From a virus: 35,997 nucleotides of DNA. Shown one piece after another: positions 5,883 to 35,677 of this stretch. The notes beneath the pieces were generated by a model that saw only the letters and a list, made by a program, of their open reading frames with translations, did no database searches and had not been told where the DNA came from. How positions within the stretch are numbered: position 1 is the stretch's first letter; every line of letters begins with the position of its first letter. The translations under genes were made by a program, and so were the position numbers. The stretch spans positions 1 through 35,997 of the IMG/VR virus record IMGVR_UViG_3300015371_000105. The stretch is one strand, 5' to 3'.

Positions 5883-7611
5883 GACGCCGCTTGATCTCTG
5901 GTATGGCACCGATGGTCCCCACGACGCCGAGATAGTGATTGTCGGTGAGGCGTGGGGCGCTGAAGAGTTTAGTGCTAAGAAGCCCTTCGTAGGACGGAGC
6001 GGCATCGAACTAACTCGGATGCTAGCCGAGGCTGGGATTGAGCGATCGAAGTGCCTACTAACCAACGTCGTAGCCACCCGCCCTTATCGTAATGAATTCT
6101 GGAGAATGTTCTATGCCCCAAAAGAAGCCCCCGCCGGAACTATCCTTCGAGGTCTCCACCCAACACCCGAGGTTGTCAATGGGATACTTCGGCTGGGAGA
6201 TCAAATTCGAGCTTTCCCAAGACGGCTCGTCATCTGCGTTGGTAACTACGCCCTCTGGGCGCTCACTGACCATACGGGATATTCCACCAGCGCCGAGACT
6301 GAAAAGCGTCGGGTTCCAAACGGAATAATGGACTGGCGGGGGTCGATGGCCTACACTCTCGCAGGAGATCAATGCCTCCCCATTGTCCACCCCGCCGCGA
6401 TCCTCCGTCAGTGGGCGCTGCGAGCTATAACCGTCCACGACCTTAAGGCAAGAGTTCCTCTCGCTCTCCGCGGCGATTGGCGGCCGAACCCAATGCCTCT
6501 CTTCTGGGCACCACCGACCTTCGACCAAGCTAAGATGAAGCTAGAGCAATGGCTTCGAAGAGCAGACCTAGCGCCGTTCCGTCTCCAATGCGATATAGAG
6601 ACGTATCAGCGCCGGTTCATCTCTTGCATCGGGTTGACGGATAGCATCAACTTCGCCATGTGCATCCCGTTCGTGCGGAAGGAGGGCCTCGACGGCCTCG
6701 AGTCCTACTGGACGCTAGACCAAGAAGTGACTCTCCTCGATCTTCTTCGCCGTCTCCTGATGCACCCGAATGTTCAGGTTGAAGGCCAGAACTTCCTCTA
6801 CGATACGCAGTATCTCCAGCACTGGTTAGCGATCTCTCCCCGACTCTCCTTCGATTCGATGTATGCCCACCACACCCTCTGGCCGGGCACACCGAAGGCT
6901 CTAGATTATCTCTCGTCGTTGTATTGTAAGTATCACTGGTATTGGAAGCACGAGAGCCAAGACTGGGATGGTAAGGGCACCCTCGAACAACTCCTAGTAT
7001 ACAACTGCTGGGACCTAGTGCGCCAGTTCGAGTGCGCTACGACCCTTCAAGAACTGATCGTTGCTCTCAGAATGGAGCCCCAATGGCAGATGACGATGGA
7101 CCGGGTTCGTCTGGCACTTCGGATGATGAACCGCGGCGTGAGGATAGATACTCGTCGGAAGGGTCAACTCTCTATCGAACTGGCTGGTGCCCTCTTCCAG
7201 ATCGACCAGCGACTGGAGACGATCATCCCACAGTCGTGGGTACCGACGAGTAAGGCGGTCAAGTCAAGATGGTATACATCACCCAAACAGACGATGTATG
7301 TGTTCTCCGAATTACTTGGTTTGAAGATTCCCCGCCATCGAAAAACCGGCAATCCTACGCTTGGCGCGGCGGAGTTTCCAGCCCTCAAGCGGCGGCACCC
7401 AGAGTGGGGACCTATCTTCGATCTGCTCGAACAACGGCGTTCCATCGCCGTCTTTAAGAGCCACTTTCTAGACATGGAGTTAGACCCCGACCTGCGCGCC
7501 CGGTGCTCCTTCAACCCCTCCGGAACCGAGACGTTCCGCTTCTCATCCTCGACCAATGCGTTCGGTCGCGGCACCAACCTTCAGAATCTCCCGAAAGGAG
7601 ACGAAGAATGA
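5854..7611 (+). CDS. UDG-superfamily domain + 3'-5' exonuclease + N-terminal part of family A DNA polymerase
   Basis: This 585-residue protein carries three modules. Residues 26-200 resemble uracil-DNA glycosylases: VIVGEAWGAEEF (28-39), PFVGRSG (44-50), LTNVVATRP (69-77) and HPAAILR (179-185) sit where family 4/5-like UDGs have their two active-site motifs. The Fe-S cysteines of family 4 are not obvious. Residues 240-395 are a DnaQ-type proofreading exonuclease with CDIET (D247, E249), NFLYD (D317) and YNCWD (Y383, D387). Residues 410-585 are the thumb and early palm of a Pol I-like polymerase, stopping right after FNPSGTETFRFSS...NLQNLPKGDEE. The chain ends just before motif A, which is encoded after the dUTPase gene. 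The TGA overlaps the dUTPase ATG (ATGA). The active polymerase must be a two-chain enzyme, or the reading is otherwise rejoined. Confidence 0.88.
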   Translation: MDTPFVPPTETPLDLWYGTDGPHDAEIVIVGEAWGAEEFSAKKPFVGRSGIELTRMLAEAGIERSKCLLTNVVATRPYRNEFWRMFYAPKEAPAGTILRGLHPTPEVVNGILRLGDQIRAFPRRLVICVGNYALWALTDHTGYSTSAETEKRRVPNGIMDWRGSMAYTLAGDQCLPIVHPAAILRQWALRAITVHDLKARVPLALRGDWRPNPMPLFWAPPTFDQAKMKLEQWLRRADLAPFRLQCDIETYQRRFISCIGLTDSINFAMCIPFVRKEGLDGLESYWTLDQEVTLLDLLRRLLMHPNVQVEGQNFLYDTQYLQHWLAISPRLSFDSMYAHHTLWPGTPKALDYLSSLYCKYHWYWKHESQDWDGKGTLEQLLVYNCWDLVRQFECATTLQELIVALRMEPQWQMTMDRVRLALRMMNRGVRIDTRRKGQLSIELAGALFQIDQRLETIIPQSWVPTSKAVKSRWYTSPKQTMYVFSELLGLKIPRHRKTGNPTLGAAEFPALKRRHPEWGPIFDLLEQRRSIAVFKSHFLDMELDPDLRARCSFNPSGTETFRFSSSTNAFGRGTNLQNLPKGDEE

Positions 7612-8060
7612 TAGAATTCCTCAAGATGTACCCCGACGTGATCCTTCCCCGTCGTGCTACCGAGAACAGCGTGGGGCTCGACCTTCACGCCTACCTCAAG
7701 ACCGAGACGGGCAGACCGAACAATATGCTTGTTTCGCCTCGAAACACCCGTGCTATCCCGACCGGCCTCATTGCGAAGCCGCCAGAGGGCCATGCGCTGT
7801 TTCTGTGCTCGAGGAGCGGGATGGCAAGGGAGATGTCGCTCTTTGTAACCAACTCGCCGGGAGTTATCGACCCCGACTATCGAGGGGAGCTCATGGTGCT
7901 TCTGTATAATGGTGGGTTCGAGAGTTACTATGTCAGGGATGGAGATAGGGTGGGGCAACTGCTCTGTCTGCCATGCCCGATTATTCCTTTCGTTGAGGTT
8001 CAGAGCCTCGACTTTAACACTAGCCGTGGAGACGCCGGATGGGGCAGCTCGGGAAGATAG
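7608..8060 (+). CDS. dut: dUTPase (dUTP diphosphatase)
   Basis: This is a complete 150-residue trimeric-type dUTPase that hydrolyses dUTP to dUMP and pyrophosphate, limiting uracil in DNA. All five motifs are visible: I (SVGLDL), II (SRSGMA), III (NSPGVIDPDYRGEL), IV (DRVGQLL) and V (RGDAGWGSSGR) at the very C-terminus. The ATG at 7608 overlaps the stop of the upstream polymerase fragment (ATGA), with AAAGGAGA about 5 nt upstream. Its last 22 nt, coding motif V, also encode the first residues of the second polymerase fragment in the -1 frame. Its position between two halves of one polymerase is highly unusual. It fits functionally with the UDG domain next door. Confidence 0.94.
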   Translation: MIEFLKMYPDVILPRRATENSVGLDLHAYLKTETGRPNNMLVSPRNTRAIPTGLIAKPPEGHALFLCSRSGMAREMSLFVTNSPGVIDPDYRGELMVLLYNGGFESYYVRDGDRVGQLLCLPCPIIPFVEVQSLDFNTSRGDAGWGSSGR

Positions 8061-8803
8061 TTCTACCCAACGTCAGAAAAATCTTCATTCCAGACCCGGG
8101 CTACACCTTCTTCGAATGCGATCTAGCGGGTGCTGATGCGCAGGTTGTGGCCTGGAGGGCTGAGGACGAGGACCTTAAGGCGGCGTTCAGAGCCGGGCTC
8201 GACGTGCATTCCAAGAACGCCGAGGACATGTGGGGCGGCGCCTTCACCTCCCTTCAAGGTGTTGCGAGGTACAAGAAGCGGCAGCAATTGAAGCAAGGCG
8301 TTCATGCGACCAATTACGGTACCACCTCGCGCACCATCGCCGGCATCCTAGGTTGGACGGTACACGAGGCCGAGACCTTCATGACGCGTTGGTTCTCTAT
8401 CCACCCGAAAATCGGCCCTATAACTCGCAAGGACTCGTGGCACTACCGGGTTCAGAAGCAGTTAGATGCAACCAAGACCATCACGAACGGGTTCGGTTAT
8501 CGGCGCGTCTACTTTGATCGTCCAGATGAGTGCTTTACGGAGGCCTTAGCATGGGATCCCCAATCCACCGTGGCACTCGTATCGTTCCACGGAGCCGTTC
8601 AGCTAGAGAGCCGTCAGCCGGATGTAGAAGCCCTTCTCCAGAACCATGACTCCATCGCCTTTCAGCTGTTAACGAAGTCCGTCACCCCCGAACGGATCGA
8701 ACGGATTAAGAAGGATCTCGAGTTTCCGGTTCCCTACTCCGATCCTCTCACCATCCGAGTGGATTTGAAGAAGAGTAGTGTGAGTTGGGGAGATTGCAAA
8801 TAG
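8039..8803 (+). CDS. C-terminal palm/fingers part of split family A DNA polymerase
   Basis: These 254 residues contain the catalytic core missing from the upstream fragment. Motif A is CDLAGADAQ (D28), motif B is RQQLKQGVHATNYG (R81, K85, Y93), the following Gln-containing helix reads AWDPQSTVAL, and motif C is NHDSI (H203, D204). Motif C has Ser where bacterial Pol I has Glu, a variation I believe occurs in other phage polymerases. The chain begins MGQLGKIVLPNVRKIF, and from LPNVRKIF onward it continues exactly where the upstream fragment stops. The ATG at 8039 lies inside the last codons of dUTPase, 22 nt before its stop, so expression probably relies on reinitiation. The two fragments should assemble into one enzyme. 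Neither contains all catalytic residues for both proofreading and synthesis. Confidence 0.9.
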   Translation: MGQLGKIVLPNVRKIFIPDPGYTFFECDLAGADAQVVAWRAEDEDLKAAFRAGLDVHSKNAEDMWGGAFTSLQGVARYKKRQQLKQGVHATNYGTTSRTIAGILGWTVHEAETFMTRWFSIHPKIGPITRKDSWHYRVQKQLDATKTITNGFGYRRVYFDRPDECFTEALAWDPQSTVALVSFHGAVQLESRQPDVEALLQNHDSIAFQLLTKSVTPERIERIKKDLEFPVPYSDPLTIRVDLKKSSVSWGDCK

Positions 8804-8861: not shown

Positions 8862-10073
8862 ATGGCCCGTAGAAACGAAAACTGGCTGAAAAGCTACATG
8901 GTTTATACTCGGGACTCCGAGGCGCCCGATCCTTTCCATTTCTGGACCGGAGTATCTACCATTGCGGGAGCACTCCGCCGCCGCGTCTGGATCGACATGC
9001 GGAAGTTCCAGTGGACCCCAAACTTCTACATCATCTTAGTCGGTCCGCCCGGTCTCGTCACCAAGTCCACCACGACCCGGATCGGGATGAAGCTTCTCTC
9101 CCAAGTCGATGGCATTAGGTTCGGCCCTCAATCTCTCACATGGCAAGCTCTAACCGTCGCGTTAGAAGAAAGTGTCGAGTATGTCGAATGGGCAGAAGGC
9201 CTCAATCTCAAGAATGTCGCTCACTCATCTCTCACGATCTCAGTTCCTGAGCTCGGTACCCTTCTCAAAATGGACGACACGGCATTGGTCGATGTTCTTG
9301 TCTCTATGTGGGATGGACAGCTCGAAGACTGGGGTCATAAGACGAAATCTTCGGGTAATTCGTTGGTTAAGAACCCATGGCTCAACCTCATCGGCGCCAC
9401 CACGCCGTCGTGGCTCCAGAACAACTTCCCCGAGCAGATGATTGGGGGCGGCCTAGCCTCCCGTGTGGTGTTCGTGTTCGGCGACCAGAAGCGGCACCTG
9501 ATCGCATATCCAGACGAGGTGTCTCCGGGTCCTGAGTACTATAAGCACGAAGCCAGCTTGGTGGAGGATCTGAAGGAGATCGCTCAGATCAAGGGACCCT
9601 ACGAACTAGACCCCGAGGCGCGCAAGTACGGCCATGTCTGGTATGAGAAGTTATGGAATGAGCGCCCCGTCCATATGGCGAGTGAACGGTATTCCGGTTA
9701 TCTCGCCCGGAAGCAAACCCACCTTCACAAGATGGCCATAATCATCGCCGCAGCCCAGAGAAACGAGCGTATCATCATCCGCGATGACCTCGTCGTGGCC
9801 GACGCCGCCCTCACGCAGGTAGAAGAACACATGGGCCGCGTGTTCCAGTCCATCGGAGTGGTCGACGAGGCGAAGCACATCGCTGAGTTGACGGCGTACA
9901 TCCGCCACTACAAAGCTATGACTGGAGAGGAGCTCTTCTCCTTCGTGCGCAACTACATGTCGGAGAAGGACTTCCAGAACGCCGTCCGAATTGCCGTGAA
10001 GGGTGGCATCTGGGCCATCGACGTGAAGGACAACCGCAAAGTTCTGGTTCTCCCGCAGAGAACGGTAAACTAG
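8862..10073 (+). CDS. DUF3987-like replicative helicase/ATPase
   Basis: This 403-residue protein resembles the DUF3987/YfjI-type ATPases found as phage helicases or primase-helicase parts. Residues 20-60 (DPFHFWTGVSTIAGAL and RRRVWID) match the family's usual start. Next comes a P-loop at 61-70 (GPPGLVTKST), a Walker B-like strand ISVPELGTLL (126-135, E130) and a sensor-like IGATTP (177-182). A conserved arginine follows (GGGLASRVVFVF, R201). The P-loop has one extra residue compared with GxxxxGK[ST] and threonine instead of the last glycine. The likely role is DNA unwinding at the fork for the adjacent polymerase. It is the last plus-strand gene, and its TAG shares the palindrome CTAG with the stop of the opposing gene. 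Confidence 0.68.
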   Translation: MARRNENWLKSYMVYTRDSEAPDPFHFWTGVSTIAGALRRRVWIDMRKFQWTPNFYIILVGPPGLVTKSTTTRIGMKLLSQVDGIRFGPQSLTWQALTVALEESVEYVEWAEGLNLKNVAHSSLTISVPELGTLLKMDDTALVDVLVSMWDGQLEDWGHKTKSSGNSLVKNPWLNLIGATTPSWLQNNFPEQMIGGGLASRVVFVFGDQKRHLIAYPDEVSPGPEYYKHEASLVEDLKEIAQIKGPYELDPEARKYGHVWYEKLWNERPVHMASERYSGYLARKQTHLHKMAIIIAAAQRNERIIIRDDLVVADAALTQVEEHMGRVFQSIGVVDEAKHIAELTAYIRHYKAMTGEELFSFVRNYMSEKDFQNAVRIAVKGGIWAIDVKDNRKVLVLPQRTVN

Positions 10074-13000
10074 CGAGGCACTCGCCGCACGTCTACCGCT
10101 TCGGGGAACAGCTCCTGTATGTGCTTCGCTACACCGAACCCCGATTTCTGCGCCGGGAGTCCCTGCTCACGAAGCGCCTTGCTCCTCAACCTCGTCTGCA
10201 TCGACTGCTTGAGCGTATCGGAGGAGATTGAGTGGCCCTTCGCCCATTGCGGCAGGTTCTGGTTGAACTCGATGATCGACTTTCGCACTCGTTCGCGTTC
10301 GTCCTTCTTCTGTCCCTGTATCGCCTCAGAGAACTGATCGAGCAGACTATCCCGCTCGACCTTGAATTTCGTCTCCGCCTCGACCTGCGCCATAATACGG
10401 TCCCACTTCGCCGACAGACGCATGGGAGTGTATCCGGCGGCGATACCTAGGATCTCTGCCATCTGCTCGGGGTCTCGGGTGTCGTAGTTCACCACGGTCG
10501 ACCCCGCAGCTACTCCCGCTCCTGACCGCTCTCTCCCCTCCGTGTATGCACGATACGCCTTAGACAGCGAGGCAAGTTCTCGAGGTATCGCTTTCTCCCA
10601 CCTCTTCGGATCGGTCAGCGCGTGGTCTTTGTCTTGGAGGAACTTGTACAGGTTGAAGCCTAGGCCGAACACGGCACCCGAGGCACGCTGTGTCTGCTCC
10701 GCAATGGTCTTGTCGGTGTCGGTAGAGTTGACCAACTTGCCAATTTGAATTGGGAGAATGTTCCCCATCCCCACCGAAGTAGACATATCTACGACGGGGG
10801 CCGGCACATTCTGTCCGGGACCAGCTTGAAGCCCTCGTCCGGGCTTTCCTGTCACGATACTTCCCGCCGCATCTAGCAGCGCCGGGATACCGAACCCCCT
10901 CCTCGCTAGACCATGCAAGATGATGTCTGGGGGTATCGTACCGTCGGTGTGTTGGACTATAAACTCCCGGACCGCCAGCGAGAGTTTGAAGTCCTTCCCA
11001 AAGATCATCTTGCTCAAGATGTTGAGAAGATCTTCGAAGTCCTGCTCTCCCGGCAGTCCCTGTACACCACCAAGTGCTAGCATGATGAGGATGAACCTGG
11101 GAAGCACATCGCTCTTATTCGCACCGAGAAGGTAGAGAGTAGAGAGCAAGTAGTGCTTGAAGACAAAGATCGTACCTGGGAGTTTACCCCGCATAAACCT
11201 CGGCCTCGCATACCGAGCATAAACGTACTGAGTCTGCTCGGTGGCGTGGACCGCTGTCACGATCGCACTCGCTTGCGCCGGCGAGTAGGTGTTGAGAAGT
11301 GTCTGGTATTCGTCTTGATACTTGTTCAGAGCATCCTTCACCGCGGTCGAATTGGGGTACTTCTGGGCGAGATCGAGCGCCGCTCTGTAGGTCACGCGGC
11401 GGTTGAACTGTTCCGCCATCTCAAACATCCACGCACTCTTCTCCAGAAGATGGTTCATTCCGCGGGTGAAGCGGTTGTTCCCGAGACCCAGAAGTGTGTT
11501 ACCTTGGGCGAGGCCCGCCAGTTCCGGCGCTTGCGTCTCGCTGATCCTTCCGGTCTTGATGCCGTAGGCGAGCGCCTCCATCTCGAACCCCGACAGATTA
11601 TCGTAGGTTCCTCTCCGATAGAAGTTAGTCACGTTCGCCATGGCCTTGACGAGGGCCTTAGAGGCTCTTGCGTCGCCGAGAATTGCACCCCCGAACTTCG
11701 CCGCCAAGAACGGGAAGGAGATCATCGGAACTTGCGTCAGGTTCAGACTCGCGCCGGCGATAGAGTATCCAAAATTCCAGAGGAATATACCTCCTTTGAA
11801 GATACCGTAGTCACCTCGAGAGTCGAGGACGGTGTTATTGAGATGATCATCCATGTAGTTCCTAATCGCATCTCCTTTGTTCCCGTAACCACTCGCTCGC
11901 GCCACATCGTCTCGCAGAGCCGCAGCATATTTTGTTCGGGTGTAGTATTTGGCTCCGTGGAAGAAATACCTCGAGAACGACCGCATGAAGTCATGGGAGT
12001 ACCCCGGTGTGTAGTCTTTGTGTTGGAAGTGGTGGGCGAAGCTAGCTTCCGGCGACATGTTGTAACGTAGTTGTTCGAGTGCTTCCTGCTGCCCCTTGGT
12101 GAGGGTTAGCTCCTTCCCAATCGACTCGATGAGAGTCGTCGGCAGACCCACGAACGGCGCCGCCGTCTCTGGCAGAATACCACCTGTCATCACCTCTCCC
12201 GGCTTGAGTTGGCGCTCGAGCTTCTTCATCGCACGCTTCTGCACCGCTTCCGCAGACAGCACACCCTTCCTCTCGAACGTCCTGAAGAACACCGTCTTGT
12301 TATCCTCGTTCTTGATCGTGATGTAGTGAGAGCCGAAGCGCATGAACGGGAAGTAAGGCATCTTCCGAAGGTTCTCGGTTCTGGTCTTAATCGCGTCGAT
12401 GGTATCAGCTAGTTTGACGGGGTTGGTGATGTTCCGCTTCGCACTCTCGACCGCATTCTGATCGAGGAGAGTGAGAAAGTTGTTGAACATCTTCCGCACG
12501 TCGGCGTAGACGAGCAAAGCTTCACGGCCCACCTGATGCTTCGCTACGAGAGCATTGAATTCTTCCGCCGTCGGCTGGCGAGTGATGCCTCGGAGTTCTT
12601 CATCCACCGTTCGATAGTTCATGTTCGTCACATCGTCGAGGAGTGCCGTTAGGTTCTCCGACTGCGCCCCGAGCCTTCGCCATGCCTTCGCCACCCTCAT
12701 AGCGGAGTCTTGGATCTTCGACTCTTCTCGATGCATAGCCTGCACCTTCTCCACATACCGGAGAAGGGGAGTGAAGAACGGATTCCGATCAACCAGTCGG
12801 TCTATCCCGAGCATGTATTTGTAGAGGCGGTTCATCCGATCCGCGTGTATGCCCATCTCCTTCGCGCCCGCAGGCGGATTCCCTCCGAATGCTTTCTTTA
12901 TGGCCTCTTTGGCCGCATGGAACTCAGGGGCCGGTGGCGAGGCTTCTTGGCCCCGGTCAATCCCATCGAGGAGTCGTTGGTTTGACTCTCGCTCGGCAAC

Positions 13001-16000
13001 GGGGTCGCCGGCTGCTCTCTCAACAATCTCGAAAGCAGGGTCTCCACGTCCGGGCTGTTTGAAAGTATCTGCCGCGCTTCGTCCAGTTGACGGAGGTACT
13101 CCGGGTCCGCCCCCTGTTGGGCTCCGAGGTCCGCCCACGTCGAAAGTAGTTGCTCCATTTCGGGCTTCGTAGGAGCCAGTGTCCTCGAGGCGGAGTCCAC
13201 GATTCCGTACATCGTGCGCCGTAAGGGTGTAGTTGAGGTATTGGAAGATATCTTCATTTTTGTTCACCGTGTCTACGACGTTCTGCTTGAACTCATGAAA
13301 GTCGAACGAGGGATCTGTGTCTAGATGTATCAGCAACCGTTGCATCTCGGCGGGGAAGTTAGCGTCATGGGTACGAACCTTGTGATGGGCGAGTTCGTGC
13401 ACCATCGTTCCCACCATTCCGATGGCGGCCCTCAAGGTGTCGGCATACTCCGGAAGCGCAACATTCAAGAAGCTCGCCGAAAACGGCACTCGGATGGAGA
13501 CACCTCGATACTCATTATCGAAGGAGACGCCGACACCCTCGTCTAGGAGTTCTGGGTACTCCATCATCCTCGAAACCTGATCCCGAAGATGAATGAAGTG
13601 CGCTCCCATGTCGTGAATGAATTCGTCGAAGCGACGTCCGAACCTCTCCCTCGCAAGTTCGACGATGCTCTTCTCTTCTAACTCGGAGATCTTCACGAGG
13701 ATGTTATCGTGGAGGATCGGCGTTCCCGGATCAATCTCCTTCTGCGGAATTATCATTTCATCATAGTCGATCTTGAAGGCTTTCAGTTCTTCGGGAGTGA
13801 GTTCCGGAATTTCTCTCCCATTCACCATCATCTTGCCATTAACGATGTCAATCGTGTCGCCAAACTTGATCCGATCGAGAGGAGTAGCGGTCTTTTTCTT
13901 CTTCGGCTCGATCTTGATCGCCTTGCTGGGAGTAACCTCTCCCGTAACCGGATCGGCGTGGAGGTACTCCATATCCCCAAAGTTCTGCGCATCACCCTCA
14001 AACGTTTGCTTCTGATACACCGCCGAGATGTACTTGAAGATATTCTCGAAGTCCTTCTTTGCCTGCTTGGCGAATTGCTGTCGGTTCAGGTCGAACGGAT
14101 AGCCCGGTTCGTCCGCCGAGACCTTCGGATTCACGTCGACATAGAACTTGCGAGGTATATTGTCGCCGTAGAGCTCATTCGGGTTCTTCTTGATCCCGAA
14201 GCTGAACTGCCACAGACCGTTGGAGAGAACGTGAGCATTCTTGCCCCAATGGTTCGGGTCTTCTTCCTTCGCAACGTATATCCTCGCATTTCCCCAATCG
14301 AACTTAACACTCGCGAATGTGGTGTATTTGTCCTTCGGGAACGTCCTCCCCATGTTCTCGACGGGCCGTCCGTTAAGTTTGACGTTGATGTCGGTGAAGA
14401 GCGGCGAGTCGTTCAGAACTGGATGATGGTAAGTGTGCGGGCTGAACTCAATCCTCTTCTGCTCTCCCGTCGAAGTGTCGTGATACGTCTCGGGGATCTG
14501 AACTGTCACGCTAGTGCCATGGCCCTTCGGAAAGAGCATCATATCCGCCGCCGTCGGGTTACGAATACTGATCCGCGGAGCCCTACTCTTGTCGTCGAGA
14601 GCGGAGAAGAGCTCATCGCCGCTCGTCCTCATCTCGGCGACCTTTCCACCACGCATGGTCGTCACGGTCATTGCTTTGTTGCCGTAGAGGAACATCATCT
14701 TCGCAATGCCGAGGCCGCCAGAAGCCCGCTCAGTCTCCTTCTTAGTTCCGGCGATTTGGAGGAATGGACCTCCGAGAGTCTCCGGCGTCATCCCGGTGCC
14801 ATTGTCGATCATCTGAATAACGCGCTTTCGGTCGTCCATTCGAATGTCGATGTCACCTGTAGAAACCTCTCCCTTATCAATCGCACCTTTCAGGGCGTCG
14901 AAGGAGTTCTGGATCAACTCCTTCACCGTAACCGGCACCATGTCGGAGGGTTCACCGTAGAGCTTCGGACCGAGCAGCTTCGCCAATCGCGCGGTGTTGG
15001 CACCGGGAGTAGACGCTACAGTATCCTCTTTCATCGGGGAGAGGAGATCAGTCAGGCTGCTGGTCGATGCCGGCGTCGCTTCGGCGTTCAGACCAGTCTC
15101 GGTCCCACCGACGATGCGCAGCTTGGGTTTCTTCTTCTCGAGAAAATCCACCACCGCCGGATTCATGGTAGTCTGAGGATCAACCGGAGGAGCTACCGCG
15201 CTCGCTCCCGTCGGAACCGTAGCAGTCGCAGTCTGAGGCGGTACTGGTACTTCCGTCGGAGCCGCAGGTGCTGCTGGAGCCGCTGGAGGTGGTGCCATGC
15301 CTACCCCTCCTGGGGCACCCAGAGGACCTGCGGCCGCCGCAATCTCCTCAGGAGTAGCTTGTGTCGGTGCGACTCGTGGCCTTGCTAGACCGCCAGGCGC
15401 GGCCATAGGTCCACCACCGATAGCACCTCCCACCCCAGACTCCAGGATACGAATACCTTGCTCTGGAACCACCTTACCAGTCAAGAGAGAGGTAACTCCT
15501 TCCTCGATCCCTTGTTGAGCGGCTTCGGTGATGGCCTCTTTCCCAGCGCCCTCGATTCCGGTCTTAATAACTCTCGCCACGATGTTAGAGGTAATGGCTT
15601 TCCGCACCTCGGAGAGTCCTCCCAGCTTCTCGATGGTAGAGGCCGGCACGATCGTATCCAGCGCCGCCATAGGAGCGGCGGCCACTGCGGAAGCCTGAGC
15701 CGCCAACTCTGGGTCGATCCCATTCTCCTTCAACTGCTTGAATACATCGCCATAGTTCTGCACGTAGGACGAGCCACCTGCTCCCGCTCTCGCCCCAATG
15801 GCACCACCGCTGACGGCCCCAATCTTTCCTAGTCTCGATCCGACTGCGGCACCAGCCCCGCCTGCGACGAAAGACGGAAGACTAGAGCCCAACGCGCTTC
15901 CGAGCGTCTCCCCCAAGTACGGCCCGATCTCCTTAAACTCTCGAATCTCGCTGAGCCGAGGAGCGGTCATCTTGTACTCCTCGGGCGACATCTTCGCGAT

Positions 16001-16804
16001 CTCTTTCATCTTCCGACTGCCGTCGAGGGCCGACTGCCTCAGGCCCTCCGGCACCAGATAACTCATCCCCTCGAGAAATTCTCCCGTCAGATCGGCGTTC
16101 GTGCCGATAGAGCTACTCACAAACCCTCTCATGAAGGCGCTGTGCTCGGGAGCGTCAGGTGGCGGCGCAGGGGTTCCCGTCTGTCCAGAAGGAGGCTGGG
16201 GAGCACTGAACTCGGGAGGCAGCACCAATCCGTCCGGGGAAGGAAACGGACTAGAAGGAGCTGCGCCGCCTGCGCCGCCGAATACTTCATCATCAGAAAG
16301 GAGTTTCTCGTTCGGATTCTCAAACGCGGGAGCCATCTCTTGCCGCCGCTTGACCAAGCCGGAGAGAGGCTTACCACCCGCCTTGTTGTACTGTAAGAAG
16401 CGCTGCTGCGCCGTCTGCCAATCGCCACTCTGAACCGCAGAGCCGAGCCCCGAACTCATCCACTTAGTGCCAGAGTTATACGTTAGATCCGTCAGAGCAT
16501 TCTTGATGTTCGGCGGCGCGTGAGGTGCGAACCGGTCGACCTGGTCTTGCGCACGGACTAGCTCAGTATCGAGATCGTTCTCTAGAGTCTGCTTGTCGAG
16601 AGATTGCCCCGGACGATACCTCGTGCCGTAGCCAACACTCGTCTGTTTGTAGTCGAACTGAGGACGTTGGGTAAACCCCTCTTGCCGTTTTACAAAGCTC
16701 TTCAGGTTCGGATCAATCGGCGCCCCGAATACATCCTGATCCGACATCAAAGGCTGATCTGGCGCCCCGAATACTTCCTCGTCGGAGAAGAGTTTTCCAG
16801 CCAT
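10070..16804 (-). CDS. Giant internal virion/ejection protein: lysozyme + GHKL ATPase + HExxH zincin (2244 aa)
   Basis: One uninterrupted frame encodes a multi-domain protein. Residues 5-29 carry two LxSDxxVFG motifs, with a third at 168-176. Residues 33-160 are a T4/P22-type lysozyme: E42 (RQEGF), D51, S56 in SVGYGT, and the C-terminal GLVKRRQEM signature. Residues 175-225 are Pro/Ser-rich. Residues 295-345 and 455-475 are glycine-zipper segments suited to membrane insertion. A Pro/Ala linker runs to about 545. Residues 610-920 are a GHKL ATPase with N box KELIQNSFDA (N633), G1 IDNGTGM (D667), G2 SGGLGIA (695-701) and G3 GHGTS (761-765). Residues 1131-1155 contain HELAHH (H1136, E1137, H1140). 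Residues 1300-2244 are helical with a hydrophobic hairpin near 1877-1915, resembling C-termini of phage large polyvalent proteins. It ends the internal-protein cluster, as T7 gp16 does. The likely roles are wall penetration, a membrane channel and injected effector activities. Confidence 0.85.
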   Translation of the reverse strand: MAGKLFSDEEVFGAPDQPLMSDQDVFGAPIDPNLKSFVKRQEGFTQRPQFDYKQTSVGYGTRYRPGQSLDKQTLENDLDTELVRAQDQVDRFAPHAPPNIKNALTDLTYNSGTKWMSSGLGSAVQSGDWQTAQQRFLQYNKAGGKPLSGLVKRRQEMAPAFENPNEKLLSDDEVFGGAGGAAPSSPFPSPDGLVLPPEFSAPQPPSGQTGTPAPPPDAPEHSAFMRGFVSSSIGTNADLTGEFLEGMSYLVPEGLRQSALDGSRKMKEIAKMSPEEYKMTAPRLSEIREFKEIGPYLGETLGSALGSSLPSFVAGGAGAAVGSRLGKIGAVSGGAIGARAGAGGSSYVQNYGDVFKQLKENGIDPELAAQASAVAAAPMAALDTIVPASTIEKLGGLSEVRKAITSNIVARVIKTGIEGAGKEAITEAAQQGIEEGVTSLLTGKVVPEQGIRILESGVGGAIGGGPMAAPGGLARPRVAPTQATPEEIAAAAGPLGAPGGVGMAPPPAAPAAPAAPTEVPVPPQTATATVPTGASAVAPPVDPQTTMNPAVVDFLEKKKPKLRIVGGTETGLNAEATPASTSSLTDLLSPMKEDTVASTPGANTARLAKLLGPKLYGEPSDMVPVTVKELIQNSFDALKGAIDKGEVSTGDIDIRMDDRKRVIQMIDNGTGMTPETLGGPFLQIAGTKKETERASGGLGIAKMMFLYGNKAMTVTTMRGGKVAEMRTSGDELFSALDDKSRAPRISIRNPTAADMMLFPKGHGTSVTVQIPETYHDTSTGEQKRIEFSPHTYHHPVLNDSPLFTDINVKLNGRPVENMGRTFPKDKYTTFASVKFDWGNARIYVAKEEDPNHWGKNAHVLSNGLWQFSFGIKKNPNELYGDNIPRKFYVDVNPKVSADEPGYPFDLNRQQFAKQAKKDFENIFKYISAVYQKQTFEGDAQNFGDMEYLHADPVTGEVTPSKAIKIEPKKKKTATPLDRIKFGDTIDIVNGKMMVNGREIPELTPEELKAFKIDYDEMIIPQKEIDPGTPILHDNILVKISELEEKSIVELARERFGRRFDEFIHDMGAHFIHLRDQVSRMMEYPELLDEGVGVSFDNEYRGVSIRVPFSASFLNVALPEYADTLRAAIGMVGTMVHELAHHKVRTHDANFPAEMQRLLIHLDTDPSFDFHEFKQNVVDTVNKNEDIFQYLNYTLTAHDVRNRGLRLEDTGSYEARNGATTFDVGGPRSPTGGGPGVPPSTGRSAADTFKQPGRGDPAFEIVERAAGDPVAERESNQRLLDGIDRGQEASPPAPEFHAAKEAIKKAFGGNPPAGAKEMGIHADRMNRLYKYMLGIDRLVDRNPFFTPLLRYVEKVQAMHREESKIQDSAMRVAKAWRRLGAQSENLTALLDDVTNMNYRTVDEELRGITRQPTAEEFNALVAKHQVGREALLVYADVRKMFNNFLTLLDQNAVESAKRNITNPVKLADTIDAIKTRTENLRKMPYFPFMRFGSHYITIKNEDNKTVFFRTFERKGVLSAEAVQKRAMKKLERQLKPGEVMTGGILPETAAPFVGLPTTLIESIGKELTLTKGQQEALEQLRYNMSPEASFAHHFQHKDYTPGYSHDFMRSFSRYFFHGAKYYTRTKYAAALRDDVARASGYGNKGDAIRNYMDDHLNNTVLDSRGDYGIFKGGIFLWNFGYSIAGASLNLTQVPMISFPFLAAKFGGAILGDARASKALVKAMANVTNFYRRGTYDNLSGFEMEALAYGIKTGRISETQAPELAGLAQGNTLLGLGNNRFTRGMNHLLEKSAWMFEMAEQFNRRVTYRAALDLAQKYPNSTAVKDALNKYQDEYQTLLNTYSPAQASAIVTAVHATEQTQYVYARYARPRFMRGKLPGTIFVFKHYLLSTLYLLGANKSDVLPRFILIMLALGGVQGLPGEQDFEDLLNILSKMIFGKDFKLSLAVREFIVQHTDGTIPPDIILHGLARRGFGIPALLDAAGSIVTGKPGRGLQAGPGQNVPAPVVDMSTSVGMGNILPIQIGKLVNSTDTDKTIAEQTQRASGAVFGLGFNLYKFLQDKDHALTDPKRWEKAIPRELASLSKAYRAYTEGRERSGAGVAAGSTVVNYDTRDPEQMAEILGIAAGYTPMRLSAKWDRIMAQVEAETKFKVERDSLLDQFSEAIQGQKKDERERVRKSIIEFNQNLPQWAKGHSISSDTLKQSMQTRLRSKALREQGLPAQKSGFGVAKHIQELFPEAVDVRRVPR
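16719..16774 (-). repeat. 42-nt tandem repeat encoding the VFGAP motif
   Basis: GGCGCCCCGAATAC occurs at 16719-16732 and 16761-16774, a 42-nt (14-residue) period. It encodes the two N-terminal SDxxVFGAP copies of the giant protein. A diverged third copy of the peptide motif lies at 16277-16303, after the lysozyme domain. The perfect DNA identity of the first two copies points to a recent duplication or to strong constraint. Confidence 0.7.
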
Positions 16805-28432: not shown

Positions 28433-29668
28433 TTACGTCGAAGAGATGTTGCCGAGGTAAGCCATGGTGAGACCACCATAGTCCACTTCGAGCGAACACT
28501 CTGTCTGGACGAACCCACGCCGAACGTCTTCATCGTCCGTCTGAACGTCGTCCTTTGCTTTGGTGTCGCGATTCTTCATCGCGACATAGTGGAGCGCGTC
28601 AAAGTCGATCACGAACATCGACTTCTTGTACAGCCCATGTCGGGACAGGAGAGGATGGATCTTGAAGAGCACCGTGCCCATCGGCATGATGAACTTCTGG
28701 AAGTCGATCCCATACACCTTCACTGTCTCCTCCGTGTTGATGCGGATATTACTCACCGCATTGAACACGAGGCCCAGCTGCACCGCCGCCTCGGAACCTC
28801 CGAACGCGATGCGAGTGTCACCGGCGCCGGTGTCGAAGTCGAAGATCGGGCTGAGCGCCGCGACCAACGACGCCGTCGTAACCGCCGATGAGAACACGGT
28901 AGTGTTCGAGGCCGGGATGAACTCCCTGAGCCCACCCATAAACCGCTTCGGCTTCCCATTATCCCCGACAGTCTCCGCCTTACGACCAAAGAGCATCGAG
29001 AACTCGATCTTCTGCGCGTGGTCCCACATCTTCCGCTTCTTGTCCTCGGACCAGGAGTTACCCGTTCTGGTCGTAGTCTCGTTCGCGGTGCCAGTGAGTT
29101 CGTAGGTGTCCTTGAAGATCTGCGTGTAGTTGTTGAACTTCAAGGGATTGCGGGACGTCGGCCTCGGAGCCGCAGTACCTTCCGCGTATGCCGAACCGAT
29201 CAGCGTCAGCCAGATGTCGTTGGCGATAGTCGCAGGGGTGGTTCCGCCAGCACCACGTCGAACCTGGAACTGCGTATCGGACAGAACGTTGTCCACTTCG
29301 AGCAGTTCGGGGGTGAACGCTGCGGCGTCGGTCGCGGGCTCCACCAGCAGAATGTCACCATTCTTCAGATGGGTTGCCGTGCCGTAGTTCGCGCCGAGGG
29401 TTGTAGTCGTGGGATCGGCGGTGTCGACGGTCACGAGAGTGTCGGCGGCGGCGAGCGCCCCGTTCACCTGCAGGCGGACCATCGCATTACCTTCGGCCCA
29501 CCAACTAAACTCGGGATCGTCAGTCGTGCGCTTCTTAGCCTTCGAACTCAGAGCCAAGATCGGCGCCGTACCGGCGGGGTTGTAGCGAAGAACACTCTCG
29601 CGGAAGTTTTTGGGGCGCTCGTCCGTGCCCCAGTCTCCAGTTCCGCGGAGACCAGCAATACCAGACAT
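28433..29668 (-). CDS. Major capsid protein, SU10/DUF5309 type
   Basis: The 411-residue protein begins with the characteristic FRESVLRYNPAGTAPILALS (residues 22-41) and DPEFSWWAEGNAM (51-63) of the SU10-type capsid family (DUF5309), an HK97-fold major capsid protein. Central NNYTQIFKDTYELTGTA (about 179-195) and the C-terminal part (MPMGTVLFKIHPLLSRHGLY) fit as well. A long acidic insert-like loop (RDTKAKDDVQTDDEDVRRG) lies near the end. It assembles into the icosahedral shell on the scaffold encoded just upstream, whose stop overlaps this start (TGATG). No separate protease gene is evident. Confidence 0.88.
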   Translation of the reverse strand: MSGIAGLRGTGDWGTDERPKNFRESVLRYNPAGTAPILALSSKAKKRTTDDPEFSWWAEGNAMVRLQVNGALAAADTLVTVDTADPTTTTLGANYGTATHLKNGDILLVEPATDAAAFTPELLEVDNVLSDTQFQVRRGAGGTTPATIANDIWLTLIGSAYAEGTAAPRPTSRNPLKFNNYTQIFKDTYELTGTANETTTRTGNSWSEDKKRKMWDHAQKIEFSMLFGRKAETVGDNGKPKRFMGGLREFIPASNTTVFSSAVTTASLVAALSPIFDFDTGAGDTRIAFGGSEAAVQLGLVFNAVSNIRINTEETVKVYGIDFQKFIMPMGTVLFKIHPLLSRHGLYKKSMFVIDFDALHYVAMKNRDTKAKDDVQTDDEDVRRGFVQTECSLEVDYGGLTMAYLGNISST

Positions 29669-31044: not shown

Positions 31045-33018
31045 TTAATAGCCTCCTCCCCCCAAACCACCATCTGCTGGGGGAGTAAGGGCAGGGAGTC
31101 CAGCCGCTGTAGAGGCCGCGTTCCCCGGCTGGACGGGAGAGGGACCGCGGGGTCCGTTGATCGGCACGACGTTACCAGCCGCGGCCGCCGCGCCGACTTG
31201 CTGGTCTGGCATAACCTGGACCTTCATCTGATGGATGTTCTTCAATCCGGCCAAGGTCGCCATCCACCCGAACATCTTCGCCCAATCATAGCTCTGGAGG
31301 ATCTGCGGCGGCATCATTCGGAGTCCACCGAAGATCTCCTTCCAAAGATTCGCCAGCGCCATTCTGTCGATCGGGAGGGTACCATCGACCGGCACAAAGT
31401 TGTAGAAGCCGGCGATCATATCCGGAGATACGTCGAGGAAGCCCTGCCCAGCGTCGATCATTAGGTCTCCCACAATCCGCATCTTGGCCGTCGAGTCATA
31501 CATCTGTTGGGAAGTCTGGACGAGTTTCTGAGAGTGGGGGGAGAATGCAGACGCCGAGATATACTCACACACAGTCTTCTGCCGGTTAACCCCGAATCCA
31601 GTCGCCGTGCGGACTTCTGTCGCGGTCTTGCGGTTGGTGCCGCCGAGCATTCCCATCATCTGGTCGTTGACACCGAGGCCGCGCTCCCCAAACTGCATCA
31701 TAGTCGCCATGTCGCCAATGTGGGTTCTGGTGACATCCTGAACCGGCACTTGGTAGAACATCTGCTTAATGTCGGAGCCGTAGGCTTCCGGCCGCAGACG
31801 CCAGACAAAGCCAGGTCCAGAGTTCTCTGCGTCTTTCGCCACGATCTTCGACGGGTCGAGGATGAACTGGTTATTCACCGCGGCGCGCACGTTGTAGAAG
31901 TGGGAGTTGATCAACCAGTCGAGGGTATTCTGGATCGGCTCGATGATCTGCGGAATACCACGATTGTATTGTCCGTAGGCTTCTACCTCTGGTTCCAGCA
32001 CATCGAAGGGGAATTTCCCGTGCATGTAGCCGAGAGGGGAGCATCCAACCACGAGGCCGAAGTCGCCCGTAACCGTGATACACCACTTCTGGGTGCCCTT
32101 GTAGTCGCCGAGCCCCCACTCACTCGGGATCAGATCGACGTAGGCTTCGTAGAAGATCCCACCGCTCGGATGCTTGGTCTTTTTGTCCGTCAGAATGTCG
32201 TAGTCCTCGAACTCGAGTTGGGAGAAGTCCGGACGTGCCAGTGCCGCGGACCCCTCACTCTTACCTTCGTCCTTCGTACAATGCTTCTTGATCTCGTCGA
32301 GGTTGATGAAGTAGCCTTCGTTCGCGCGCTCGAGGATCTTCGCCCACGACAACCTCTTACGGACAATCACAAACTCGCCTAGCTGGAAGTTCGTGATCGA
32401 AACTCGCGGATCGGGGAAGAAATCATACGGCGACACGTTGTAGACACGATTCCCCTTATATGCTTCGATCTCCTGAGTTGTCTGATAGAGTTGGACCCCC
32501 TTACCGTCTTGGAGATCTGCTTCCACGATCTGTCCGAACGCGATCTTCTCCTCACACCAATAGTGGCCGAGAACCCCGATACCGTACTTGCCGCCGTCAT
32601 ACATCCAGAGGTAGTATGGCGCCATCATGTCTCCGACCTCGACTTGGTAGGCGATCAGGGCTTCGAGCGCTTGGACCTGCATCTCAGTCTCACCATGGCG
32701 GCCGGAGTACTGGTGCACTGGGTTCCTCGCAAAGAACACACTGGTCCAATAGGTGTGAGCGGACATGACCATAGCGAAGGAGTACGGCAGAATGATCGTT
32801 GAGTACTTCGGCTCGCCTGACACTTCGCGCTTGTTGCGGCGCACGGCGTCAGCTTCGCTTTCCGGAACGTAACCCACCATCAACTCTTCCGCTCTCCTCC
32901 ACATCGGATGGCGCTCTTGCTGCGCTTGCTGGGAGATGGTGAACCGAGATCGAACGCGGGAGAGAAGCCGCTTCTCCAGCTTGTCCCCCGGCTTAATCTT
33001 CAACGAATACGAAGGCAT
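31045..33018 (-). CDS. Portal protein, 657 aa
   Basis: The start at 33018 overlaps the large terminase stop (TGATG) and has GGAG nine bases upstream; an ATG three codons earlier has no such spacing. The protein has the expected features of a podovirus portal. These are a helical N-terminus (LLSRVRSRFTISQQAQQERH), a wing region with PYSFAMVMSAHTYWTSVFFA (about residues 80-100), and many aromatic strands in the crown and stem (YNVSPYDFFPDPRVSI). There is a helical tunnel region near FGERGLGVNDQMMGMLGG (about 440-460). The C-terminus is Gly/Pro/Ala-rich. It forms the dodecameric DNA gate at the packaging vertex, where terminase docks. The assignment is supported by its place between terminase and scaffold. 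Confidence 0.85.
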   Translation of the reverse strand: MPSYSLKIKPGDKLEKRLLSRVRSRFTISQQAQQERHPMWRRAEELMVGYVPESEADAVRRNKREVSGEPKYSTIILPYSFAMVMSAHTYWTSVFFARNPVHQYSGRHGETEMQVQALEALIAYQVEVGDMMAPYYLWMYDGGKYGIGVLGHYWCEEKIAFGQIVEADLQDGKGVQLYQTTQEIEAYKGNRVYNVSPYDFFPDPRVSITNFQLGEFVIVRKRLSWAKILERANEGYFINLDEIKKHCTKDEGKSEGSAALARPDFSQLEFEDYDILTDKKTKHPSGGIFYEAYVDLIPSEWGLGDYKGTQKWCITVTGDFGLVVGCSPLGYMHGKFPFDVLEPEVEAYGQYNRGIPQIIEPIQNTLDWLINSHFYNVRAAVNNQFILDPSKIVAKDAENSGPGFVWRLRPEAYGSDIKQMFYQVPVQDVTRTHIGDMATMMQFGERGLGVNDQMMGMLGGTNRKTATEVRTATGFGVNRQKTVCEYISASAFSPHSQKLVQTSQQMYDSTAKMRIVGDLMIDAGQGFLDVSPDMIAGFYNFVPVDGTLPIDRMALANLWKEIFGGLRMMPPQILQSYDWAKMFGWMATLAGLKNIHQMKVQVMPDQQVGAAAAAGNVVPINGPRGPSPVQPGNAASTAAGLPALTPPADGGLGGGGY

Positions 33019-34553
33019 CAGGGGCATCTCCGACTAAGAGGAGACTTCTCTATCTCATCATCATACTGCCGTCCTCCACCGACCTCAAGAACGGGCGATA
33101 TGAGGTCAGACAGTGCGATAGCACTTGCATCGAGATCGTCGTCATGATCGGTGTAAGTGCTAGAATAGTCATTGAACTGTTGGATGAACACAGACTCCTC
33201 TACCGGAACATTCAGAAGCCCCTGCGAGGCTACACCGGAGAGCGTAGAGGTGATGCGGGTGTACTTCGCCCGCATATCCACATAAGGGATCACGACGTAG
33301 TAGAGGCCGCGGCGCTTCATCTCTTGTTCGAGCATCCACTTAATCGTGCGCTGGTACGCGATACTCTCAATCAGCGCCCGCGCAATCCGCCACCGATGCG
33401 CGAGGTAGAAGAAAGTGTTGATCGTCCAGTTCGGTTCGTGGCCGCGATTACGCGCCGACTCGAGGAGGAAGTACTCCCCACCCTCTCTCCCCCACACATA
33501 ATGCGCCTCGAAGTCTTTGTCGGCGAGTCCCTTTGCGATCTGCCTCTCGCTCGGCGGTGGAACCGGATCAATCCCGAGGACGGAGAACGGGAGCGCTCTC
33601 TGTGTGATGACGTGGTGGATTTTGAGCCACTCAGGGCGGAAAGCCTTTGCTTCGGGCGTCGTAAGGCGTACCTCCATCTCCTTTGTGAAGATGGAGAGAC
33701 GATTGACGCGGATCGCTTCGAGCTTCTCCGCTCTGAGGGTCTCGGTAGGGTAGCGTTCTTCCCACGAACTGACCTGTTGGAGGACAGGAAGATCGAGGGT
33801 CTCTTTTGTCCAGCACGGAACCTCGATCGTCTTCCACATCGGAGAATTACGGGCTTCGGCCGAGAAGTCCTGAGAGTGTTGGGGAGTATTGAAGGCCGCC
33901 AGCTTGGCGTTGGGCTCTTCGGTGGCCGGGGCGAGAGAGTTCTTGATTGCGCCGAGAACTAGATCGGAGATCTTCTCTCTCTGCTCTGAGGTAGCAGAGT
34001 TCTCGTCCTGCAAGATGTCATCGAGAATGATGCAATCGGGGCGATAGTCGTCGAAGTTGATACCTCTAATACCACTCGACGTTATGCCCACCCCAATGAT
34101 CCAGATGGGGTGGTCGAGCTTATCGTGGACTATTTCAATCTGCTCGTCGGTCCACTTGCCGCCCTTTTTAAGTCCGAAGGTTTGGGCCCAGAACGTGTTC
34201 TTTTCAACTTGGTTCTTAAGCCAGCGAATGCTCCGGAGAGCAGCCGGTTCGTTTGCGCCGACGTACAAGATTGTTCGAGACACTCCATAACCAACTCGCT
34301 TAGAGAGGAACGCTCGTGCTCTAGTCGTTTTCGCGGAGCCTCGAAAGCCGAGAACGTTGACGAACCGGTCCGCGGGATTGTCGAGGGCATCCCAAATCTC
34401 CTTGTCGAAGGGAGGGGCTTTCTGGCGGAAGGTCTTGGGGAAGAACGTACGACAATAGAGGTCGTTGTCTACCGCCGCGAGGAGAACGAGTTCCCGCAGG
34501 TCGATGTTGACTGGCGCCGCCGGCGTCTCAATCAGAACTTCTTCTTTTTCCAT
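33018..34553 (-). CDS. terL: Terminase large subunit, 511 aa
   Basis: This is the packaging motor. The ATPase half shows Walker A GFRGSAKTT (residues 69-77), Walker B CIILDDILQDE (174-184) and the coupling motif FNTPQH (221-226). The nuclease half shows D329 in VLGIDP, an acidic residue in ALIES (about 396), and DHDDDLDASA (469-478). These motifs are typical of TerL, which drives DNA into the procapsid with ATP and cuts concatemers. The gene overlaps its upstream neighbour by 22 nt and the portal gene by one base. The ribosome site (AGG at a short distance) is weak, so translation is probably coupled. Confidence 0.93.
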   Translation of the reverse strand: MEKEEVLIETPAAPVNIDLRELVLLAAVDNDLYCRTFFPKTFRQKAPPFDKEIWDALDNPADRFVNVLGFRGSAKTTRARAFLSKRVGYGVSRTILYVGANEPAALRSIRWLKNQVEKNTFWAQTFGLKKGGKWTDEQIEIVHDKLDHPIWIIGVGITSSGIRGINFDDYRPDCIILDDILQDENSATSEQREKISDLVLGAIKNSLAPATEEPNAKLAAFNTPQHSQDFSAEARNSPMWKTIEVPCWTKETLDLPVLQQVSSWEERYPTETLRAEKLEAIRVNRLSIFTKEMEVRLTTPEAKAFRPEWLKIHHVITQRALPFSVLGIDPVPPPSERQIAKGLADKDFEAHYVWGREGGEYFLLESARNRGHEPNWTINTFFYLAHRWRIARALIESIAYQRTIKWMLEQEMKRRGLYYVVIPYVDMRAKYTRITSTLSGVASQGLLNVPVEESVFIQQFNDYSSTYTDHDDDLDASAIALSDLISPVLEVGGGRQYDDEIEKSPLSRRCP

Positions 34554-35086
34554 CTGAGGACCTGGAAACTGGAGGACAGGAACGAGCTATCTTCATCGAC
34601 GAGGACGGTCGGCTCGGGGAACGGAGTATGCGGGTCGAAGCTGCGGCAGACCTCGAGGACGCAGATTGAGGACCTCGGATACATCGTCTGGAGGACCGGC
34701 TGATACAGTCGTCGGAGTTGCCACCACGCCTCTGGCATATGTTGATACTTGATCTCCACGATGACCACGAAGTTCGGCGTCGGGAAGATGATCCCATCTG
34801 GGATGATCGAACGGTGATGCATCCCGTCGTGGAAACGGATAACGGGGGTGCGGCGGAACTGCCCATCATACCTCTCGGAGAAGATAGAGAGGACTTGACG
34901 CTCATACCTCGCGCCGGCAACCTGCGCGGCGGAGAACCCGGTCGCAGCCGCCTCTCGTCCTTCGAAGTGTGGACTATGCACCTCCACGGCGGGTCGGAAG
35001 CCGGGTGGAGGCGGAACAGCAACGGGGTCGGCCCCTGTCAGACCTTGCCCATCATCCCGAACGATCATAGGGAGATGCGGAAGCAC
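34532..35086 (-). CDS. PD-(D/E)XK nuclease-like protein between terminase genes, 184 aa
   Basis: The core has IIPDGIIFPTPNFVVIVEIK (residues 94-113): P96-D97, then a hydrophobic strand ending E111-I-K113, the canonical PD-(D/E)XK spacing. An upstream helix with E62 (ARYERQVLSIFSERY) and the following QLRRLYQPVL fit the fold. The family includes restriction and repair nucleases. Beside the small terminase gene and overlapping terL by 22 nt, it may process packaged DNA or attack foreign DNA. The frame starts at GTG 35086, immediately after the small terminase stop, with GAAGG four bases upstream; an ATG at 35068 is the alternative. Confidence 0.62.
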   Translation of the reverse strand: MLPHLPMIVRDDGQGLTGADPVAVPPPPGFRPAVEVHSPHFEGREAAATGFSAAQVAGARYERQVLSIFSERYDGQFRRTPVIRFHDGMHHRSIIPDGIIFPTPNFVVIVEIKYQHMPEAWWQLRRLYQPVLQTMYPRSSICVLEVCRSFDPHTPFPEPTVLVDEDSSFLSSSFQVLRWKKKKF

Positions 35087-35677
35087 CTAGCCTTCGTCCT
35101 TCTGCTGTCCCGCCCCCTGAGGCTGATGCTCGATCTGAGGAGGAGAGGGAGATACAGTCTTTGCGAGCTCCGCCTGATGCTGCCGAAGCGCCATACGAGC
35201 CTGTTGGATATCTTCCGCCGTCACGGTGTGAGGAAGCTGGACGTTCGTCTGAACGTTGACCACCGGCGCAGTCGCTGCCTCCGGCTTTGGCGCCGTGTAA
35301 CCGAGGCGCTCGAGGGAACTGGCAGCTAGCTCCTGCAACTGGCCGAGGGGAACCCGATCGCGCTTGTTCTCGAGTGTGGTAAGGATGGCGTCGAGGGAGG
35401 CGTGCGCGATCTTCGTCGTCTTGTCGATGATGCCCAGATCGTGGTGGAGGGTGAACTCCTGCCGCCGCTTGGCGAAGTGGGTCTTGAACAAATCGGAGTT
35501 AATCATCGCGCTGACGGTCTGCGCGCTGCGACGGATCTGGTCACCGAGTTCTTGGTTCGTCGCGTTCGGCTTGACGAGCATGTAGTCGATCAGGGCGTCG
35601 AAGTACCAGAGCGTCCTGCTCCGGGTCTTTCGGCTCTGCTCGATCGCCGGACGGATGTGGTCTTGGAGGTAACTCAT
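35087..35677 (-). CDS. terS: Terminase small subunit, 196 aa
   Basis: Residues 20-70 look like a helix-turn-helix (FDALIDYMLVKPNATNQELG, IRRSAQTVSAMI), as in DNA-recognition parts of TerS. Residues 85-135 form a helical oligomerisation segment (GIIDKTTKIAHASLDAILTT). The C-terminus is Pro/Gln/Ala-rich, with a helix (AEDIQQARMALRQHQAELAK) that may bind the large subunit. A GGAGACAGAGAA element precedes the ATG. It lies upstream of terL with the nuclease gene between them. It would select phage DNA at the packaging site. No pac or cos site can be identified by eye. Confidence 0.72.
   Translation of the reverse strand: MSYLQDHIRPAIEQSRKTRSRTLWYFDALIDYMLVKPNATNQELGDQIRRSAQTVSAMINSDLFKTHFAKRRQEFTLHHDLGIIDKTTKIAHASLDAILTTLENKRDRVPLGQLQELAASSLERLGYTAPKPEAATAPVVNVQTNVQLPHTVTAEDIQQARMALRQHQAELAKTVSPSPPQIEHQPQGAGQQKDEG

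Follow-up and report, generated by a model that had tools for sequence, protein, structure and literature searches.

A PD-(D/E)XK nuclease gene lies between the genes for the small and large terminase subunits in the window (the whole stretch of 35,997 nt analysed here, which makes up an entire virus record), and among relatives this gene stays beside terS. We consider it highly probable that the nuclease belongs to packaging or DNA maturation, and tentatively propose that it is an accessory endonuclease of the packaging machine that works with TerS and cuts or nicks at genome ends.

The terminase block

The genes concerned occupy a minus-strand block in the order terS, nuclease, terL, portal and, further on, an SU10-type capsid protein. 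The nuclease gene (34532..35086, 184 aa), identified by conservation, model and neighbourhood, has a GTG start that immediately abuts the terS stop in the ORF map, and its 3′ end overlaps the 5′ end of terL by 22 nt (34532..34553), an overlap that the preliminary description had given and with which the ORF coordinates agree. terL (33018..34553; phrog_38, E = 1.3e-58) is followed by the genes for an SU10-type portal protein (31045..33027; PF23899, E = 3.3e-14) and, downstream in the same block, the SU10-type major capsid protein (28433..29668; PF17236, E = 9.5e-34), all on the minus strand.

The gene at 35087..35677 (minus strand, 196 aa) is a probable small terminase gene, judged from weak matches, position and model. 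Its direct match to phrog_2538 was weak in the window (E = 0.001), with 7 of 35 TerS-like members matching, and the model (pLDDT 79.9) combines a helix-turn-helix with long helices. Structural matches were weak and mostly to helix-turn-helix regulators; others were to 2ao9, a protein from a phage (Foldseek E = 0.1; Z 7.4, rmsd 6.2), and to 7joq, the small terminase of NV1 (Z 5.9). The profiles for TerS and TerL applied below were built from loci of the present set, so they find family members and give no independent proof of the names. In Vibrio phage VS-ABTNL-3, the product annotated as ‘putative RNA polymerase’ (PVS_06, L004 3170-4193) groups with the TerS family, and the next product, PVS_07, annotated as ‘endonuclease I’, is the terS-side nuclease.

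The window TerL is distantly N4-like, and its RNase H-like triad was retained among 15 aligned sequences (D329 in 15, E396 as 12 E and 3 D, D472 in 15). With these nuclease residues intact, TerL can probably cut already, in agreement with the earlier statement that it has a nuclease of its own, and the PD-(D/E)XK enzyme would thus be additional rather than a replacement for a dead TerL nuclease.

Elsewhere in the window, a second PD-(D/E)XK protein, matching PDDEXK_1 above the Pfam cut-off, is encoded near a Sak4-like annealing protein (942-1925 and 2501-3364, plus strand). The two are probably a recombination pair of exonuclease and annealing protein, so that recombination need not use the terS-side nuclease. 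A split DNA polymerase with a uracil-DNA-glycosylase head is encoded at 5854-7611 and 8039-8803 (plus strand), where the glycosylase domain is fused to a polymerase-type 3′-5′ exonuclease domain and the family A polymerase domain forms a separate ORF. An N6/N4 DNA methyltransferase is joined to a ParB N-terminal domain at 4309-5637 (plus strand), and an ORF of 2244 aa spans 10070-16804 (minus strand). VS-ABTNL-3 and Microcystis phage Mel-JY34 each have one giant ORF, which ends the block that terS begins.

Conservation and selection

ORF length and a PD...ExK motif alone are weak evidence for a gene, because the pattern PD-x8..22-[DE]xK occurred in 5 of 117 stop-to-stop ORFs of at least 100 aa in the window and long antisense ORFs occur there as well. 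The ORF at 34532..35086 was rated above chance because it is conserved across relatives, is under purifying selection in them and gives a confident model nearest to PD-(D/E)XK nucleases, and we regard it as a confirmed gene.

Among viral contigs, the window protein matched two relatives, at 41 and 46% identity, and it led directly to two named phages, VS-ABTNL-3 and Caulobacter phage Kuura; the nuclease of Mel-JY34 was reached via VS-ABTNL-3. Profile searches yielded 95 distinct records with the nuclease besides the window, including the three phages just named and a contig deposited under a bacterial MAG (L194). Duplicate loci of the same contig were removed from this count and near-identical contigs were retained, hence we also give cluster numbers (80 at 90% and 32 at 50% amino acid identity). 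ORF lists that demanded a start codon missed the nuclease of one record (L032), which a later search recovered. When 84,980 genomes of bacteria and archaea were scanned with patterns taken from a handful of peptides conserved in alignment A5, which divergent relatives may escape, a single contig was returned, assigned to a Gammaproteobacteria MAG, with the nuclease beside terS and terL.

Four residues (G58, D97, E111 and K113) were invariant in 42 aligned nuclease proteins, window included, and five more (E62, P81, Q123, Y128 and P130) were conserved in at least 90% of them. The glutamate E62 (codon 34901..34903, minus strand, as are those that follow) lies in the helix before the core and was E in 89 and Q in 3 of 92 aligned sequences of a larger set. 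D97 of the PD motif (codon 34796..34798), presumed catalytic, was retained in 90 of 92, the exceptions being E in Kuura and A in L063, which has D in alignment A4. The ExK residues E111 (34754..34756) and K113 (34748..34750), likewise presumed catalytic, were present in 94 of 94. Among relatives, three pairs had dN/dS estimates of 0.09, 0.10 and 0.23, and synonymous sites were saturated in three further pairs, with the window in none of the six. The sequence comparison thus indicates purifying selection on related nuclease pairs.

Fold and family

The structural check foreseen in the preliminary description was run with AlphaFold on the family alignment and gave a model with the restriction-nuclease fold (pLDDT 90.4, pTM 0.85). 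The closest solved fold was NucS (2vld; Z 9.2, rmsd 2.9, 100 aligned residues; VIA-align), a modest score that barely exceeds the 7 to 8 usually reached by models lacking a match. EndoMS (5gke, Z 9.0) and VC1899, Can2 and Card1 (Z 8.0-8.7) came next, and McrC, Cas4, BspD6I, FokI and others ranked lower; nine chains reached Z of at least 8. Foldseek alone gave no PDB match to the model at E = 0.001, and the top match in a viral structure library was a 157-residue entry (1e-12). Most of the structural matches have one fold, PD-(D/E)XK, whose active site is made up of the residues that are invariant in the nuclease. The solved nucleases among them have many different specificities, and NucS/EndoMS and Can2/Card1 have the core fold alone in common with the present protein, at 9 to 17% sequence identity.

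With both features of the superfamily in hand, the restriction-endonuclease core fold in the model and the conserved PD...(D/E)xK active site, membership in the PD-(D/E)XK superfamily is sound and metal-dependent DNA cleavage is predicted. The invariant active site and the confident model bear out the original reading of an extra nuclease gene of this kind between terS and terL. The subfamily is absent from the family libraries used and is claimed by no curated family. The only Pfam family to touch the window protein was PF24608 (PDDEXK_15, a phage putative PDDEXK endonuclease; E = 0.0018, residues 57-115), which matched 1 of 42 members at 18.6 bits, below the curated cut-off of 27. PF08378 (NERD) matched a single member other than the window protein (1 of 42, E = 0.0037), PHROGs matches were weak, to RecE-like and resolvase families that each matched a single nuclease member, and no member of the 42 matched an HNH family in Pfam at E = 0.01.

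The nuclease profile also weakly touched lambda exonuclease and Cas4 (E = 0.05 to 0.1), which would fit a non-specific nuclease that trims DNA ends or completes heads during or after packaging, in the manner of the TnsA-like protein gp4 of T4. That protein is described as a virion-associated nuclease of restriction fold and is reported to be required for packaging (PMC7824862), so the present enzyme resembles it in fold and in its tie to packaging. Association with the virion contrasts with a gene that travels with terS, and none of the 42 members matched a TnsA-like or gp4-type family in Pfam or PHROGs scans at E = 0.01. We regard end trimming or head completion as an improbable role.

Linkage to terS

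We then compared gene neighbourhoods across the 95 records, which are related, so that counts do not represent independent events. terS lay upstream on the same strand within 243 nt of the nuclease, often overlapping it, in 87 records, and in the remaining 8 the contig begins no more than 171 nt before the nuclease domain. terS therefore adjoined the nuclease in 87 of 87 testable records (86 without Kuura), and insertions between the two never exceeded 243 nt. The distance to terL was more variable: terL was found within 100 nt of the nuclease in 62 of 94 records and within 500 nt in 81, and was 1.0-3.9 kb away in 8 (for instance 2634 nt in L037, 3266 nt in L063 and 3878 nt in L190); in L182 it was not found in the 4 kb available downstream of the nuclease. 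In four records (L002, L037, L063 and L190) nuclease and terL are separated by an additional 1.8 to 3.9 kb, with a tight terS-nuclease junction. Because terL drifts while terS stays adjacent, we consider the nuclease linked to terS rather than to terL. This neighbourhood evidence shows co-location, not protein contact. When 20 long records were searched whole, 18 had one nuclease copy each and two had none. The parts of the open-licence PMC literature covered contained no paper that describes a gene of this type in the terS-terL interval.

The preliminary description had also offered a packaging-linked weapon against foreign DNA. A nuclease that degrades the host genome or excludes competing phages, and sits in the packaging operon by chance, could have the present fold, which is common to Can2/Card1, McrC and restriction enzymes. 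Exchangeable weapons would not usually be expected to keep one neighbour as this gene keeps terS in every testable record; the claim found no support, and we hold such a role to be very improbable.

Presence and loss

The TerL scan took in the best 80 of 385 loci. In a TerL tree of 62 rows, rooted with an outgroup of 6 of the 38 distant loci (L064-L101), the close clade comprised 55 rows, of which 48 have the nuclease. The seven rows without it differ in what their records cover. One contig is cut off at terL (L022); in L040 and L052, about 500 and 350 nt upstream are available, and the nuclease was found neither there nor elsewhere in the records. In L030 the nuclease is absent and terS is not nearby. 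Three rows (L042, L043 and L048) have both terS and terL with the nuclease nowhere in their records, which may be fragments, and suggest that packaging can probably proceed without it. No HNH substitute (PF01844) was matched in these three or in L030. The nuclease was also not found in the available stretch of the 38 distant TerL loci; named phages with distant TerLs include N4-like ones.

Nesting of the absences among carriers suggests that the nuclease was lost in some lineages; the gene probably dates from early in the history of the group, and certain lineages can probably do without it. Absence from some lineages, together with the entry of extra sequence into the nuclease-terL interval (L002, L037 and L063), might instead point to a selfish nuclease of homing type, or a cargo nuclease, that entered the terS-terL interval. 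Carriage by most of the close clade with absences nested among carriers, purifying selection, and the finding that the 18 carriers searched whole each have a single copy, beside terS, all argue against an element of this type, and we give it hardly any credence.

Genome ends

Measured genome ends came from one relative, Kuura, which is described as a podophage with 606-bp direct terminal repeats determined by PhageTerm (PMC9959647). The 606-bp repeat is exact in the Kuura record, in which the annotated terS begins at nt 750, adjacent to the left repeat. The Kuura TerL is distant and sits on a long branch of the TerL tree, so the end type of the window is extrapolated from that of Kuura. An exact end repeat was absent from the window record in an end comparison, and the deposited records of VS-ABTNL-3 and Mel-JY34 have no terminal repeat. 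Among 16 long relatives, 7 contigs repeated 60 to 144 nt exactly at their two ends, 6 shared 16-mers near both ends (at most 268 nt from the end) and 3 had neither. End repeats of about 127 nt are what we take to be probable assembly overlaps, which makes these contig-end repeats uninformative on cos versus terminal repeats.

The 10-mer GGGGTCGAGG begins the Kuura terminal repeat (L019 43208, the repeat of position 1), occurs a second time 25 nt upstream of the repeat (43183), which makes a 10-bp direct repeat next to the Kuura left end, and a third time at 35492, and is a possible recognition element.

We also considered whether terS and the nuclease are naturally fused in Kuura, where a single ORF of 431 aa annotated as small terminase (Kuura_002, L005 750-2045) contains TerS-like and nuclease-like parts. 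With Kuura left out of the profile, the TerS match scored 17.7 bits and the nuclease match reached E = 2.4e-19; far lower E-values for this locus came from profiles that contained it. The nuclease is in the same frame as the TerS head. Across the joining stretch (about nt 1410-1650), codon usage is poor in frame and better in the +2 frame, which holds a TerS-tail-like peptide that falls below significance when scored alone. The reading frames make it likely that this ORF reflects a frame error or mutation, and the fusion was therefore not counted as support.

Proposed role in packaging

Genes for HNH packaging proteins adjoin terminase genes, and such proteins, HK97 gp74 included, were reportedly placed in phage packaging machines by Kala et al. 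in 2014. The nuclease described here is like HK97 gp74 in being encoded by a small separate gene beside the terminase genes and in being extra to an intact TerL nuclease. It differs in having a PD-(D/E)XK rather than an HNH fold, in directly following terS and mostly preceding terL, and in genome ends, which in Kuura, the relative for which measurements were available, are direct terminal repeats instead of cos ends. The preliminary description had suggested an analogue of the HNH nucleases that cut at cos sites: a functional analogue is plausible, whereas the cos framing is less likely given the terminal repeats of Kuura, and cos may be the wrong end type for the window phage. HK97 gp74 is described as stimulating cleavage at cos, where TerL and gp74 may each cut a different strand (PMC11331095, PMC9410871), and by analogy the present nuclease may make a single-strand cut at a site marked by TerS. 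That it stays with terS although TerL probably can cut is our reason for placing its most likely action at the packaging site.

We infer catalytic activity, co-translation, TerS contact and site-specific cutting in the following scheme. TerS would bind the packaging site on the replicated concatemer, and the nuclease, translated from the mRNA that also encodes TerS and kept in the vicinity of TerS, would cut the DNA there or close by, or nick it in a single strand. TerL, using its own nuclease, would then perform the other cut or cuts and drive the DNA into the head. In a phage with direct terminal repeats, the cut by the nuclease may provide one of the staggered nicks at which copying of the repeat starts; the authors of PhageTerm describe such repeats as arising by extension from staggered nicks (PMC5557969). 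The most specific version, in which TerS-bound nuclease nicks once in short-tailed phages with direct terminal repeats, TerL makes the other nick and strand-displacement copying creates the repeat, seems to us rather unlikely as it stands.

The main rival of TerS-guided cutting is packaging-coupled debranching, in which the nuclease resolves Holliday junctions and concatemer branches that would otherwise stall the motor; we judge it possible, though doubtful. T4 endonuclease VII and T7 endonuclease I clear junctions and branches from the concatemer in this way, and T7 endonuclease I (PF05367) is itself a PD-(D/E)XK resolvase, with a domain-swapped fold. Like it, the present protein is a phage PD-(D/E)XK nuclease, and it is annotated as ‘putative endonuclease I’ in the records of two relatives. 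The two differ in position, with the present gene beside terS, and in family, as none of the 42 members matched PF05367 at E = 0.01. T7 endonuclease I did not appear in the list of solved structures matched to the model, which is compatible with a common fold.

RusA and RuvC gave no match, and endonuclease VII none above cut-off, in 19 records, including the window, Kuura, VS-ABTNL-3 and Mel-JY34, which leaves a resolvase role open to the nuclease. A Kuura match to endonuclease VII was rejected as sub-threshold, antisense inside terL and containing a stop. Phage_endo_I (PF05367) was also unmatched in the 19 records, with the control silent as well. Two records without the nuclease (G003 and G005) likewise lacked matches to RusA, RuvC and endonuclease VII, so that such a resolvase is not visibly needed. 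The nuclease matches to the resolvase families phrog_244 and phrog_6591 would favour debranching, but are weak and come from 1 of 42 members each, and a general resolvase would not be expected to be tightly linked to terS.

These findings point to a third enzyme in the terminase module of a broad environmental phage group, one that none of the family libraries searched claims. Should it act with TerS in making genome ends, VS-ABTNL-3, Mel-JY34 or Kuura would allow a direct test of which enzyme introduces the staggered nicks behind direct terminal repeats, and nucleases of restriction fold would stand next to HNH proteins as terminase partners. Should the nick-and-copy version for short-tailed phages be true, the nuclease would fill the place of the nickase still missing from the model of terminal-repeat packaging.
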